From positions 226,812 through 290,811 of the forward strand of contig SVKB01000001.1 in NCBI GenBank assembly GCA_015068665.1: a DNA stretch of 64,000 nt. The letters are read 5' to 3'. The translations under genes were made by a program, and so were the position numbers. The stretch's first letter is position 1, and each line of letters starts with the position of its first letter. The notes beneath the pieces are model-generated. The model was not told the origin of the DNA, did not search any database, and saw only the letters and a program-made list of their open reading frames with translations. This document shows positions 53,070 through 58,079 of the stretch, piece after piece. This DNA is from Oscillospiraceae bacterium (GTDB lineage: Bacteria > Bacillota > Clostridia > UMGS1840 > HGM11507).

Positions 53070-53098
53070 TTGACAAAGAAAATAAAGTTTGCTACAAT
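53070..53098 (+). promoter_or_regulatory. Sigma-A promoter of the aspS-gatAB operon
   Basis: TTGACA (53070-53075), 17 bases, TACAAT (53093-53098), directly before the T-box leader. Confidence 0.88.
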
Positions 53099-53104
53099 TA
53101 GCAT

Positions 53105-53327
53105 GGAGACTCGGTTTTTGTGGAAAATCTGTCAGGGAGAATGCGTCATGGACTGAAAGCGCATTTCAGATGAGTAGTAAATCAGGGAACGCTCCGGGTA
53201 AGCAGGCGCTTACTTTTAAAAATCTATATTAAAGTGGATGTGTTTTATACGCATCAATGCGGGTGGCACCGCGGGTTAGCTTTTAGTTTACTCGTCCCGG
53301 GAATATTATTATTCCCGGGGCTTTTTT
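53105..53327 (+). promoter_or_regulatory. T-box riboswitch leader
   Basis: The T-box core GCGGGTGGCACCGCGG lies at 53259-53274. It is followed by the terminator CCCGGGAATA/TATTCCCGGG with T-run (53296-53327), the alternative to the antiterminator. T-box leaders sense uncharged tRNA. The TGGC of the core would pair with an acceptor end having discriminator G, which fits tRNA-Asn, -Asp or -Glu. About 150 bases of stem I region precede the core. I could not assign the specifier codon with confidence; GAC (53151) and AAC (53188) are candidates. Its position before AspRS-GatC, GatA and GatB suggests asparagine-linked control. Confidence 0.9.
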
Positions 53328-53353
53328 CTATATTTAATTTAGGAGGTTATACT

Positions 53354-55429
53354 ATGTACAGAACTCTATTCTGTAACGACATTTGTGACAAGCACATAGG
53401 TACAACCGTATCCCTTGCAGGATGGGTTGATGTTGTAAGAGACCACGGTGGCGTTATATTCATTGACTTAAGAGACTACACCGGCGTTACTCAGGTGGTT
53501 GTTCACAATGAGGAGTTACTAAAAAACGTAAACCGTGAAACTGTTATTTCGGTTACCGGTAAGGTGGAAAAGCGTGATCCCGATACCGTTAATACCAAGA
53601 TTGCAACAGGCTATGTGGAGCTTGTTGCCGATTCGCTTACCGTTCTCGGTAAGAGTCAGAATATGCTTCCCTTTGAGGTAAGAGCATCAAGACAAAGCAA
53701 GGACGAGTTAAGACTTAAATACCGTTATCTTGACCTTCGTAATCCTAAAAATCACGATAATCTTGTTATGCGTTCAAAAATTATCCGTCATCTTCGTAAT
53801 AAAATGGAGGAGAAGGATTTTCTTGATATGCAGACTCCTATCCTTACAGCTTCTTCACCCGAGGGTGCAAGAGACTTCCTTGTTCCCAGCCGTAAGCATC
53901 CGGGAAAATTCTATGCCCTTCCTCAGGCACCGCAGCAGTTCAAACAGCTTCTTATGGTTTCGGGCTTTGACCGTTACTTCCAGGTAGCACCTTGCTTTCG
54001 TGATGAGGATGCCCGTGCAGACCGTTCTCCCGGTGAATTCTATCAGCTGGATTTTGAAATGGCTTTTGCAACTCAGGAGGAGGTTTTAGATGTTTGTGAG
54101 GATGTTATCTACGACACCTTCAAAACCTTTTCCGATAAAAAGATTACCGAAAAGCCCTTCAGAAGAATTACCTATAAGGATGCAATGATGACCTATGGCT
54201 CAGATAAGCCGGATTTAAGAAATCCTCTTTTAATCTGTGACCTTACCGATTTCTTTGCGGATGTGGATTTCCCTGCCTTTAAGGGTAAGCCGGTAAGAGG
54301 TATTGTTGCTGACTGTCAGGGTAAGAGCAAAAAATTCTTTGAGGACTCCTTAAAGTTTGCAACATCAGCCGAGGTTGGACTTGGCGGACTTGGATATATC
54401 ACCTTAAAGGAGGGTGTGTTTGCAGGTCCTATCGCTAAATTCTTAACCGATGCAAAAAAAGAGGAAATAGTAAAGTTAACAGGTGTTAAGGAAGGGGAAA
54501 CCTTATTCTTCATCTGCGACGATAAGAAAAACGATACCGAAAAGAAGGCAGGTCATATAAGAACCTGGCTTGCAAAGAAGGAGCAGCTTGACTTAATTCG
54601 TGACGATGCCTTTGAATTCTGCTTCGTTGTTGATTTTCCGATGTACGAAATTGACGAGGAAACAGGGGAAACCATATTTACCCATAACCCATTCTCGATG
54701 CCACAGGGCGGTATGGATGCTCTTCTTAACAAGGAGCCTACCGAGGTGCTTGCATATCAGTACGACCTTGTTTGTAACGGTATTGAGCTTGCTTCGGGTG
54801 CCGTTCGTAACCACGATATTGATATAATGAAAAAAGCGTTTGATATTGCAGGATATTCAGAGGCAGAGCTTAAATCCAGATTCAACGCACTTTATACCGC
54901 ATTCCAGTACGGTGCTCCTCCTCATGCAGGTATGGCACCCGGTATTGACCGTATGGTTATGCTTCTGACCGATGAAGAAAAAATCCTTGAGGTTATTGCC
55001 TTCCCGCTAAACGGTAATGCCCAGGATTTACTGCTTGGTGCACCAAGTGAGGTTACCAATCAGCAGCTTGAGGATGTTCATCTTTTAGGAAGCGGAAGCG
55101 CGCTGGCAGGAAGAGGAACTCCGTCAGGCTCAAGTAAAGGCTCTTCAGGTAAGCGTTCAACCTTCTCAAATGCACAGCAGCTTAACCAGTTATCCTTAAC
55201 CGATAAAGAGGAAGAGGAAATGACAGGAATTTTCAAGGCTATGCTTGAAAAGGAAGCACTTCTTGCAACGGTTGATACAGAAAATACAGAAGAAATGGTT
55301 CACGTAATGCCTATGTCCAACGTTCTTCGCGAGGATGAAAGAAAGCAAATCTTCGAAAGGGAAGACCTTCTTAAGGGTGCTCCCGAACGCAGCGAAGACA
55401 GCTGGCAGGTTCCGAGACTTGTAAAGTGA
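53354..55429 (+). CDS. aspS: Aspartyl-tRNA synthetase fused to GatC
   Basis: A 691-residue protein; the start is the ATG at 53354 with AGGAGG, not the longer frame that reads through the T-box. Residues 1-about 578 are a bacterial AspRS: anticodon-binding OB fold (1-105), class II core with motif 2 FRDEDARADR (215-224), GAD insertion (about 285-415) and motif 3 GMAPGIDR (526-533). H31 in VVRDHGG is the residue type associated with non-discriminating AspRS, which also charges tRNA-Asn. Residues 579-606 are a Ser/Gly-rich linker. Residues about 612-691 are GatC: LSLTDKEEEEM, VDTENTEEMVHV (640-651), NVLREDE (656-662), GAP (675-677) and a VPRLVK end. The operon has no separate gatC. Confidence 0.93.
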   Translation: MYRTLFCNDICDKHIGTTVSLAGWVDVVRDHGGVIFIDLRDYTGVTQVVVHNEELLKNVNRETVISVTGKVEKRDPDTVNTKIATGYVELVADSLTVLGKSQNMLPFEVRASRQSKDELRLKYRYLDLRNPKNHDNLVMRSKIIRHLRNKMEEKDFLDMQTPILTASSPEGARDFLVPSRKHPGKFYALPQAPQQFKQLLMVSGFDRYFQVAPCFRDEDARADRSPGEFYQLDFEMAFATQEEVLDVCEDVIYDTFKTFSDKKITEKPFRRITYKDAMMTYGSDKPDLRNPLLICDLTDFFADVDFPAFKGKPVRGIVADCQGKSKKFFEDSLKFATSAEVGLGGLGYITLKEGVFAGPIAKFLTDAKKEEIVKLTGVKEGETLFFICDDKKNDTEKKAGHIRTWLAKKEQLDLIRDDAFEFCFVVDFPMYEIDEETGETIFTHNPFSMPQGGMDALLNKEPTEVLAYQYDLVCNGIELASGAVRNHDIDIMKKAFDIAGYSEAELKSRFNALYTAFQYGAPPHAGMAPGIDRMVMLLTDEEKILEVIAFPLNGNAQDLLLGAPSEVTNQQLEDVHLLGSGSALAGRGTPSGSSKGSSGKRSTFSNAQQLNQLSLTDKEEEEMTGIFKAMLEKEALLATVDTENTEEMVHVMPMSNVLREDERKQIFEREDLLKGAPERSEDSWQVPRLVK

Positions 55430-55439
55430 GGTGGATGAA

Positions 55440-56624
55440 ATGAAGTATTATATGAATGTAATAAATGAAAAAGGGAACATCGCACTTGAGGATACCCTGC
55501 TTTATAAAGGAGCTCCCGCCTGTGCAGGCTCCCGTATCTTAGAAGGCTACACGCCGCTTTTCTCTGCCGAGGCAGTAAAGCGTCTTGAAGAAAATGGCTA
55601 TGTGATTTCAGGTAAGGCTCATGTTGGTGAATTCGGTCTTGACCTTCTTGGCGAATTTTCCCATTATGATAAAAAAGAGGGAGCCTTAAAGGGTGCCGCG
55701 GCATCCCTTGTTGCAGAAGGTGCGGTAAAAGCAGCTCTCGGTGTTGATATGAACGGCTTTACAAGACGTGCTGCGGCAATAAGCCGTGTTGATTTTATAA
55801 AGCCCACTTACGGTACCGTTTCCCGTTACGGCGTAATTTCCTGTGCCGCATCAGGGGAGCAGGTTGGTGTTTATGCAGGAAATGCAACTGATACAGCAGA
55901 AATTTTAAATGTAATTTCCGGCCATGATGAAAAGGACGGTACTTCTCTTAAGAATGAAAAATATCAGTATACAGCATCGGCTGATATCAGCGGTAAACGG
56001 GTTTGTGTAATAAAAGAGCTTCTTGACAAGGCTGATGATGCCACCAAAGCAAATATAAATGCTTATATCGGCGCACTTAAGAAAAAGGGCGTAGAGGTTG
56101 AAGAAATATCCTCGGATATTTTTGAAATTTCCAATATTGCATGGCAGATTTTAATGACTGCGGAAACCTGTAATAACGTTTCCCGTTATGACGGAGTAAA
56201 ATACGGCTACAGAGCTAAGGAATATAAGGATATTGACGAGCTTTATGTAAATTCAAGAACAGAGGGCTTCAACTTCCTTACAAAGGCTGTTATTATGTAC
56301 GGCTCGGATGTTTTATCCAAGCTAAGATACAAGGCTTGCTATGAAAAATCCTTAAAAATCCGCCGTGTAGTTTCAGAAAAATATAAAGAGCTTATGAGTA
56401 AATACGATGCAATTCTTACTCCTGTATGTTCAAAAACCTCCTATGAGGCTTATGATATAAAGGATGCCTTCTTAAAGGTGTTTGAGGAAGGTGTATTTAC
56501 CTCTGTTGCAAACCTTATCGGTACTCCCGCGTATGTAACAAAGGGTGTTCAGCTTCTTGGCGGTCACTTTAACGAATCGGCTCTTTTAAGTATTGCGGCA
56601 GCTTGTGAAGGGGAGGTAGAATAA
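55440..56624 (+). CDS. gatA: GatA-like protein lacking the amidase catalytic residues
   Basis: A 394-residue homologue of the GatA subunit of Asp/Glu-tRNA amidotransferase; the start is ATG 55440 with GAGGTGG upstream. Normal GatA has about 485 residues; the first about 70 are missing here. GatA blocks remain: SRILEGYTPLFSAEAVKRLE, IKPTYGTVSRYGVIS, RYDGVKYGYR, SRTEGF and GGHFNES. The Ser-cisSer-Lys triad is gone: the Lys of IKDN aligns with E17 (ALEDT), the cis-Ser of GGSSGGS with A82 (EGALKGA), and the nucleophile Ser of GSDTGGS with F107 (GVDMNGF). Glutamine hydrolysis is therefore unlikely. The frame is intact and conserved outside the active site, so it is probably a structural or regulatory subunit rather than a pseudogene. 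Confidence 0.9.
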   Translation: MKYYMNVINEKGNIALEDTLLYKGAPACAGSRILEGYTPLFSAEAVKRLEENGYVISGKAHVGEFGLDLLGEFSHYDKKEGALKGAAASLVAEGAVKAALGVDMNGFTRRAAAISRVDFIKPTYGTVSRYGVISCAASGEQVGVYAGNATDTAEILNVISGHDEKDGTSLKNEKYQYTASADISGKRVCVIKELLDKADDATKANINAYIGALKKKGVEVEEISSDIFEISNIAWQILMTAETCNNVSRYDGVKYGYRAKEYKDIDELYVNSRTEGFNFLTKAVIMYGSDVLSKLRYKACYEKSLKIRRVVSEKYKELMSKYDAILTPVCSKTSYEAYDIKDAFLKVFEEGVFTSVANLIGTPAYVTKGVQLLGGHFNESALLSIAAACEGEVE

Positions 56625-56625
56625 T

Positions 56626-58050
56626 ATGAAATACGAATTGGTTATAGGTTTGGAGACTCATGTTGAGCTTGATACCAAATCAAAAATCTTCTGCTCCTGC
56701 GGAGGTCATTCCGAGGCAAAGGAGCCAAATGACTGTGTATGCCCTGCCTGCAGCGGTATGCCGGGTATGCTTCCCGTTATGAATAAAAAGGTTGTTGAGC
56801 TTGCGGTTACGGCAGGTCTTATGCTTAACTGTAATATCAACCGTTATACAACCTTTGATAAGAAAAACTATTACTATCCCGATCTTCCCTGTGCTTATCA
56901 GATTACCCAGCTTAACCACCCTATCTGCACAGACGGTCTTGTAACCTTAAAGACCTCGATGGGTGAAAGAGGTATCCGTATCAAGCAGATTCACATGGAA
57001 GAGGATGCAGGTAAGCTTGTTCACGGCGGAAAGTATTCTTATGTGGACTTTAACCGTACAAGTGTACCTTTAATTGAGATTGTAACCCAGCCTGATTTCA
57101 GAAGTGCAGAAGAGGTTGTTACCTATCTTAATAAGCTTAAATCAATGTTCCGCTCGGGCGGTATTTCCGAGTGCGAAGAAGGGGCGATGAGATGCGATGT
57201 TAACATCTCCGTCCGTCCCGAAGGCAGTGAAGAATTCGGTGTTCGTACCGAAATCAAGAATATGGCATCCTTTGAAGCCATTGAAAAGGCAATCAACTAT
57301 GAGTTCCAGCGTCATGTGGATGCCCTGGAATACGAAACCGAGGAATTGGTTCAGGAAACAAGAAGATTTGACGATGCAAGCGGCAAAACCTTTGCTATGA
57401 GAAATAAGGAAACCGAAGCGGATTACAGATATTTCCCCGATGCAAATCTTATGCCCATCATAATTGACGATGAATGGCTTGAACAAATCAAGGCAAATAA
57501 GCCGGTTGCAGTTGATGAAAAGGCAGACGAATACAGAGCGGCAGGAATTTCCGAAAAGGAAATCGATATGCTTTTATCAAACAATAAACTTATGAAGCTT
57601 CATAATGATGTGGTTTCAATGGGATGTAATTCCAAGGATGCGGCGGCCTGGATTTTAACTGACTGTGCAGGTATACTCCGTAAAGACGGAAAGAGTCTTA
57701 ACGAGCTTACCGTAACAGCAGAAAAATTAGGCGCTATCATTAAGATGGTTGACTCGGGCAAAATCAACCGAAATGCAGGTAAGAAAATCTTAATTGCAGT
57801 GGTTGAAGAGGATGTTGACCCTGTGGAATACTGCAGTAAGCTTGGACTTGACCGTAAGGTTGATGAATCAATGATTTCAGAGGTTATTGATAAAGTTATC
57901 GAAGGTAACCCGCAGGCAGTTGCGGACTTTAAGAGCGGTAAAACAAAAGCCGCACAGGCTCTCTTCGGTGCATGTATGAAGGAGCTTAAGGGCGCAGGTG
58001 ATCCGGGAACAATTAAATCGGTGCTTGACGAAAAGCTGAATACTCTATAA
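56626..58050 (+). CDS. gatB: Asp/Glu-tRNA amidotransferase subunit B
   Basis: A 474-residue GatB of normal length. It phosphorylates the side chain of misacylated Asp-tRNA-Asn (or Glu-tRNA-Gln) and transfers ammonia to it. The catalytic cradle is intact: IGLETHVELDTKSKIF (7-22), zinc Cys C23/C25/C39/C42, HMEEDAGKL near 125, DFNRTSVPLIEIV near 142, CDVNISVRP near 190. The tail has the helical and YqeY-like domains (about 295-474). It follows GatA by one base, so translation is coupled. With GatA lacking an amidase site, ammonia would have to come from free ammonium or another enzyme (inference). RBS GGGGAGG. Confidence 0.95.
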   Translation: MKYELVIGLETHVELDTKSKIFCSCGGHSEAKEPNDCVCPACSGMPGMLPVMNKKVVELAVTAGLMLNCNINRYTTFDKKNYYYPDLPCAYQITQLNHPICTDGLVTLKTSMGERGIRIKQIHMEEDAGKLVHGGKYSYVDFNRTSVPLIEIVTQPDFRSAEEVVTYLNKLKSMFRSGGISECEEGAMRCDVNISVRPEGSEEFGVRTEIKNMASFEAIEKAINYEFQRHVDALEYETEELVQETRRFDDASGKTFAMRNKETEADYRYFPDANLMPIIIDDEWLEQIKANKPVAVDEKADEYRAAGISEKEIDMLLSNNKLMKLHNDVVSMGCNSKDAAAWILTDCAGILRKDGKSLNELTVTAEKLGAIIKMVDSGKINRNAGKKILIAVVEEDVDPVEYCSKLGLDRKVDESMISEVIDKVIEGNPQAVADFKSGKTKAAQALFGACMKELKGAGDPGTIKSVLDEKLNTL

Positions 58051-58051
58051 T

Positions 58052-58079
58052 AAAAAAGGAGGTTTTCACCTCCTTTTTT
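58052..58079. terminator. Terminator of the aspS-gatAB operon
   Basis: AAAAAAGGAGG, short loop, CCTCCTTTTTT: perfect, with U-runs in both directions. Confidence 0.92.

Follow-up and report, generated by a model that had tools for sequence, protein, structure and literature searches.

A cluster of genes from a member of the Clostridia encodes AspRS2-GatC, GatB and, between them, a GatA homologue (GatA*) that lacks the glutaminase catalytic residues of ordinary GatA. The genes lie in the window, the 64,000-nucleotide stretch of DNA analysed here. AspRS2-GatC, GatA* and GatB are best read as an Asp-tRNA(Asn) amidotransferase that would use ammonia not derived from GatA*, probably free ammonium; we give this reading a probability of roughly 0.6. 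It is very probable that GatA* does not hydrolyse glutamine and that the complex makes Asn-tRNA, while free ammonium is the probable, less firmly placed, main donor. The sequence itself shows that the glutaminase site is gone, that GatA* is under purifying selection and that the GatB site is intact, together with an Asn-type specifier and missing AsnRS and AsnA. The features of the locus are as follows.

53070..53098, + strand: promoter-like site, TTGACA-17 bases-TACAAT, ahead of the T-box leader (read from sequence)
53105..53328, + strand: T-box leader with unusual Stem I and an intrinsic terminator at its end; specifier AAC (Asn) at 53188-53190 (Rfam, alignment, G298 homologue)
53354..55429, + strand: AspRS2 fused to GatC, 691 aa; GatC part at about 55160-55426 (Pfam tRNA-synt_2, GAD and GatC; NCBIfam aspS and gatC; RDHGG)
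55440..56624, + strand: GatA*, a homologue of GatA lacking the glutaminase catalytic residues and about 63 residues at the N-terminus (profiles, alignment, tree, dN/dS)
56626..58050, + strand: GatB with intact kinase and transamidase motifs and a YqeY tail (Pfam GatB_N and GatB_Yqey; NCBIfam gatB above cut-off; alignment)
58052..58079, + strand: intrinsic-terminator-like hairpin closing the operon (read from sequence)

GatA* lacks the glutaminase catalytic residues

The GatA* frame encodes 394 aa from an ATG start and, as initially annotated, contains no internal stop. An in-frame GTG lies ahead of this ATG, at 55431. The protein matched the Pfam Amidase profile at 183 bits, far above the cut-off, over profile positions 52-418 of 445. 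Because the match starts only at position 52, the N-terminus is missing, as the initial annotation had claimed; its estimate of about 70 residues was too high, and alignment to ordinary GatA gave about 63. Against TIGR00132 (gatA) the score was 263.6 bits, with a cut-off of 481.1. The nearest solved structures by sequence match are GatA of T. maritima and of A. aeolicus. The latter was also the top PDB fold match of the AlphaFold model of GatA*, which at pLDDT 63 is too weak for judging the pocket.

Individual residues were compared by alignment with 13 ordinary GatA proteins of the same class. The catalytic Lys80 is replaced by E17 in the window protein and by Asp in the other 18 GatA*, and the nucleophile Ser179 by F107, both as initially annotated. 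The cis-Ser is also lost, but its placement at A82 was incorrect. The GGSSGGS loop that carries it is shorter in GatA* and both conserved Ser are gone, their columns corresponding to L83 and K84, whilst A82 occupies the neighbouring Gly column. At the position of Asp426, the residue that binds the amide of glutamine, stands G351 (this Asp is D418 in yeast; residue roles are from the yeast GatFAB structure, PMC4027206). None of the 19 GatA* has the Lys, the cis-Ser loop or the amide-binding Asp. The nucleophile column holds Ala in 11, Ser in 5, Thr in 2 and Phe in 1, with F107 found only in the window genome; the five proteins that retain Ser do so without the Lys or the cis-Ser. Lacking every catalytic residue, GatA* is therefore not expected to provide the amide nitrogen by cutting glutamine.

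GatA* also has invariant residues of its own, namely an acidic residue at 17, N105 and R110 at the former catalytic site and D68 and N245 elsewhere. We looked for a triad elsewhere in the protein, for close relatives with an intact triad and for signs of decay, and found none of them. Sequencing or assembly error was ruled out as the cause of the lost residues, since identical losses occur in 19 genomes.

GatA* forms a conserved clade

The 19 GatA* proteins, all with open frames, come from 19 genomes: that of the window (G000), G002 and G008 of the same order, eight named Clostridia MAGs and eight genomes from a 391-genome survey of the class. G014 and G265 are apparently one genome and were counted once. 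Four of the eight named MAGs are labelled rumen, cecum or colon of ruminants, and the carriers as a whole are uncultured Clostridia from gut and rumen. Scores in the class survey were bimodal, with GatA* at 648 bits or above, the divergent G298 at 434 and ordinary GatA at 289 or below. In the tree, a branch supported at 100/100 sets all 19 GatA* apart as one clade. A TGA flagged in the survey in the G143 GatA* is no nonsense codon; it marks the end of the frame, which is 3-4 residues shorter than the others.

The other GatA* share 44-70% identity with the window protein. Between close pairs, dN/dS was 0.05-0.12 for GatA*, compared to 0.03-0.07 for the neighbouring GatB. Given this low dN/dS and the acquisition of its own invariant residues, GatA* has been remodelled under constraint and is not decaying. 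The carriers are spread over families coded f1, f2, f6, f16, f19, f20 and f51 within the class. The tree intermixes these families, which suggests horizontal transfer among them, although many inner forks are weak.

We also checked for a second gatCAB, as had been proposed. G000 has a single Amidase-family gene, and in the class survey none of the 12 genomes with GatA* showed a second GatCAB or a second GatA-like gene. G015 is the only GatA* genome with a second GatCAB. Here an ordinary GatA-GatB pair lies directly upstream of the GatA* operon (L045:745-4278) with its own canonical T-box, whose specifier is likewise AAC. This genome also has AsnRS, AsnA and a tRNA-Asn gene; either the two systems coexist here or the bin is mixed.

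A probable Asn-type T-box leader precedes the operon

In the window the order is T-box leader, AspRS2-GatC, GatA* and GatB. The promoter arrangement seen here also stands ahead of most leaders in relatives. The window leader scored 45.5 bits against the Rfam T-box (RF00230; gathering score 93). Its homologue in G298, ahead of the same operon, is a standard T-box of 135.8 bits with AAC at the specifier position. The leaders other than that of G298 carry GGGAAC-purine, immediately followed by the 3' strand of the helix at the base of Stem I. This helix was read off the leader alignment and then checked by pairing; it covaries (GGAG/CUCC, UUGAAG/CUUCAA, UCGAAG/CUUCGA). RNAalifold missed it, and single-sequence folds of the leader were no better than shuffles. 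The AAC specifier is predicted to read tRNA-Asn, and GAAC would also offer an overlapping Glu codon, as reported for the C. acetobutylicum transamidation operon (PMC4052509).

The GatC part of the fusion scored 48 bits against PF02686 and 56.5 against TIGR00135, above the latter's cut-off of 47.1. Against PRK12820, the AspRS/GatC bifunctional family, AspRS2-GatC scored 453.6 and did not reach the cut-off of 1379. In the anticodon-binding region AspRS2 carries RDHGG, compared to mostly RNLG or RDLG in AspRS1, which we take to be the difference expected between a non-discriminating and a discriminating AspRS. GatB proved to be intact, as initially annotated, by its motifs, its NCBIfam score and alignment. 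In the early-branching G298, G015 and G112 the AspRS is unfused and GatC is a free gene. The glutaminase residues were therefore lost while the AspRS-GatC-GatA*-GatB operon was still unfused, and AspRS and GatC became joined only afterwards.

Most GatA* genomes have no other visible route to Asn-tRNA

In G000 we found AspRS1, AspRS2-GatC and LysRS, and found neither AsnRS nor AsnA. Genes for GluRS and GlnRS are adjacent on one strand of this genome (G000:C46:61895-64440, L203), and the matches of the same pair are equally close in G003. As G000 has a GlnRS, the complex should be needed solely for Asn-tRNA(Asn).

AsnRS was not found in 15 of the 19 GatA* genomes; G009, G012, G014 and G015 have a genuine one. 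A candidate AsnRS in G068 was rejected, the protein being an archaeal-type AspRS (L143:1132-2463; NCBIfam aspartate--tRNA(Asn) ligase, above cut-off), and no ordinary bacterial AspRS1 was found in that genome. AsnA was checked in 17 genomes; 11 of these carry GatA*, and in 10 of the 11 no AsnA was found. By contrast, every one of the six close relatives that have no GatA* has AsnRS as well as AsnA (Fisher p = 0.0006 for AsnA and 0.001 for AsnRS, without correction for kinship). The AsnB domain PF00733 gave only partial matches in G000-G003 (29 bits or less; 27 or less in G000), which we read as other ATP pyrophosphatases. The GatA* operon therefore seems to replace the AsnA-plus-AsnRS route, which is itself ammonia-dependent. 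With AsnRS and AsnA missing and one GatA-like gene per surveyed genome, the complex appears to be the sole visible source of Asn-tRNA in most GatA* cells. Most of the genomes are MAGs, some only 65-80% complete, and these gene absences are thus provisional. In G015 and G112, tRNA-Asn genes with U1-A72, the pair recognised by bacterial GatCAB (PMC4206432), adjoin the operon. The proposal of a remodelled tRNA amidation system with an intact GatB and an AspRS-GatC fusion draws support from gene content, T-box specifier, selection and the conserved clade.

An asparaginase-fold protein is linked to the GatA* operon

A divergent asparaginase-fold protein (PF00710) is encoded in 15/15 AsnRS-less GatA* genomes, compared to 1/4 with AsnRS (p = 0.004), and in none of the six close relatives without GatA*. 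In the class sample it occurs in 11 of 12 GatA* genomes and 132 of 379 others (p about 1e-4). Its gene adjoins the operon in 11 of the 19 genomes, directly after gatB in eight of these. The operon-linked proteins form one clade (99/99) together with the G000 copy, which is located elsewhere in its genome. This linked family keeps GGTI and HGTDT whilst the usual catalytic Lys of the Thr-Asp-Lys set is replaced. It misses the curated asparaginase and GatD cut-offs by far and is roughly as far from asparaginase I as from GatD. G010, G011, G016 and G298 have PF00710 members from other subfamilies only. No PF00710 protein of any kind was found in G009, G012 and G014, and the protein therefore cannot be a universal donor. 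The linked protein may feed ammonia to GatA*BC, or may salvage free Asn as Asp and ammonia, the two substrates of the pathway; free asparagine is useless for translation in an AsnRS-less cell.

In G002, G068, G366 and G008 the operon, or the asparaginase-fold gene that goes with it, is followed by a gene for a protein resembling alanyl-tRNA editing enzymes (tRNA_SAD, DHHA1; L188:8255-9409, L181:7758-8909, L178:7644-8813, L189:7507-8502).

Source of the amide nitrogen

We infer the tRNA specificity, the assembly of the complex, the amide donor and the scaffold role of GatA* as follows. AspRS2 would charge tRNA(Asn) with Asp, and the tethered GatC would keep GatA* and GatB beside it. GatB would then activate the Asp carboxylate with ATP and amidate it with ammonia not produced by GatA*. 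GatA* itself would be retained as a scaffold that GatB and GatC need structurally, possibly also as an ammonia entry port or tunnel entrance to GatB. The nitrogen would most likely be free ammonium, which is abundant in gut and rumen, perhaps topped up by the linked asparaginase-fold protein where present. GatFAB truncated so as to impair its GatA site showed faster amidation with NH4Cl, and GatB can take ammonia directly (PMC4027206). The NAD synthetase family provides a precedent for in vivo amidation with free ammonia (PMC3376133). The ammonium dependence suggested in the initial annotation is thus the best-fitting reading, although the linked protein is a rival source of ammonia.

This linked gene is a possible hint, against free ammonium, of an enzymatic source. 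A protein recruited beside the operon could make ammonia from Gln or Asn, hence the lost function of GatA*, in a bacterial GatD-like solution. Its presence in every AsnRS-less GatA* genome and in no close relative, its position, mostly straight after gatB, and the clade shared with the G000 copy all argue for such a donor. We nevertheless consider it doubtful: the catalytic Lys of asparaginases is replaced, the curated cut-offs are missed by far, and seven GatA* genomes have either no PF00710 protein or one from another subfamily. Its presence also follows the loss of AsnRS, as expected from mere salvage of free Asn to Asp and ammonia. The wider proposition, that the inactivated GatA is a scaffold with ammonia from a recruited asparaginase-fold partner (an independent GatD-like solution) or that its dead pocket is a dedicated NH4+ entry site, is tentative, though slightly less doubtful.

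The invariant residues peculiar to GatA* could instead signal new chemistry in its pocket, with a different donor or a new site of hydrolysis. The acidic residue in place of the Lys, N105, R110, D68 and N245 would fit, but none of the known catalytic triads can be recognised in this set, and a structural role or a place in the lining of an ammonia port would suit these residues equally well; we regard new chemistry as improbable. A decaying pseudogene, or a sensor complex without amidation activity as the initial annotation had raised, would account for the loss of every catalytic residue. The AspRS2 of G009, on a contig of about 2x coverage, is moreover broken by stops. The low dN/dS, the 19 conserved frames and the lack of another visible Asn-tRNA route in 15 genomes speak against both. 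A sensor in particular is unlikely, given that most of these genomes show no route to Asn-tRNA other than the complex, and we give decay or sensing very little credence.

Comparison with known amidation systems

GatCAB has been described as coupled to its own glutaminase, and the GatA* clade would be a natural test of GatA roles beyond hydrolysis. If a clade of gut Clostridia relies on a glutaminase-dead GatCAB for all of its Asn-tRNA, it would test whether free ammonia can feed translation directly and how gut nitrogen supply shapes tRNA charging. A literature search that took in few subscription journals found no published account of a glutaminase-dead GatA, making its novelty provisional.

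The Asn transamidosome of P. aeruginosa (4wj3), formed by bacterial GatCAB and a non-discriminating AspRS, likewise brings together AspRS, GatC, a GatA fold and GatB, has the GatB active site and makes Asn on tRNA(Asn) in AsnRS-less cells. In contrast, here the GatA glutaminase site is lost, the GatA N-terminus is absent and GatC is fused to AspRS in most members. Should the linked protein be the donor, a GatB-type subunit would here receive its ammonia from an asparaginase-fold protein, as in archaeal GatDE. The substrate of GatDE, however, is Glu-tRNA(Gln); the GatD cut-off lies far above the score of the linked protein, and GatA* and GatC are still present here. AsnA and mammalian carbamoyl-phosphate synthetase I amidate with free ammonia, as the GatA* complex would, and the latter keeps a dead glutaminase domain; both differ from the GatA* complex in fold and in not being tRNA-dependent. 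The same likeness and differences hold for single-domain NAD synthetase (PMC3376133).

In C. acetobutylicum an additional AspRS and GatCAB stand under a T-box for two codons (Saad 2012 and 2013, by way of citations in PMC4206432 and PMC4052509). As these citing papers present it, that system shares with ours an extra AspRS, a transamidation operon under an Asn-reading T-box and GAAC with its overlapping Glu codon. Compared by description only, it differs in that GatA triad loss is not described there, whilst here AspRS and GatC are fused and Stem I is unusual. Of the GatA* genomes, G010 and G016 encode one more AspRS, their third, which is about 704 aa long (L061 and L056); L061 carries RDMGG in the anticodon-binding region.
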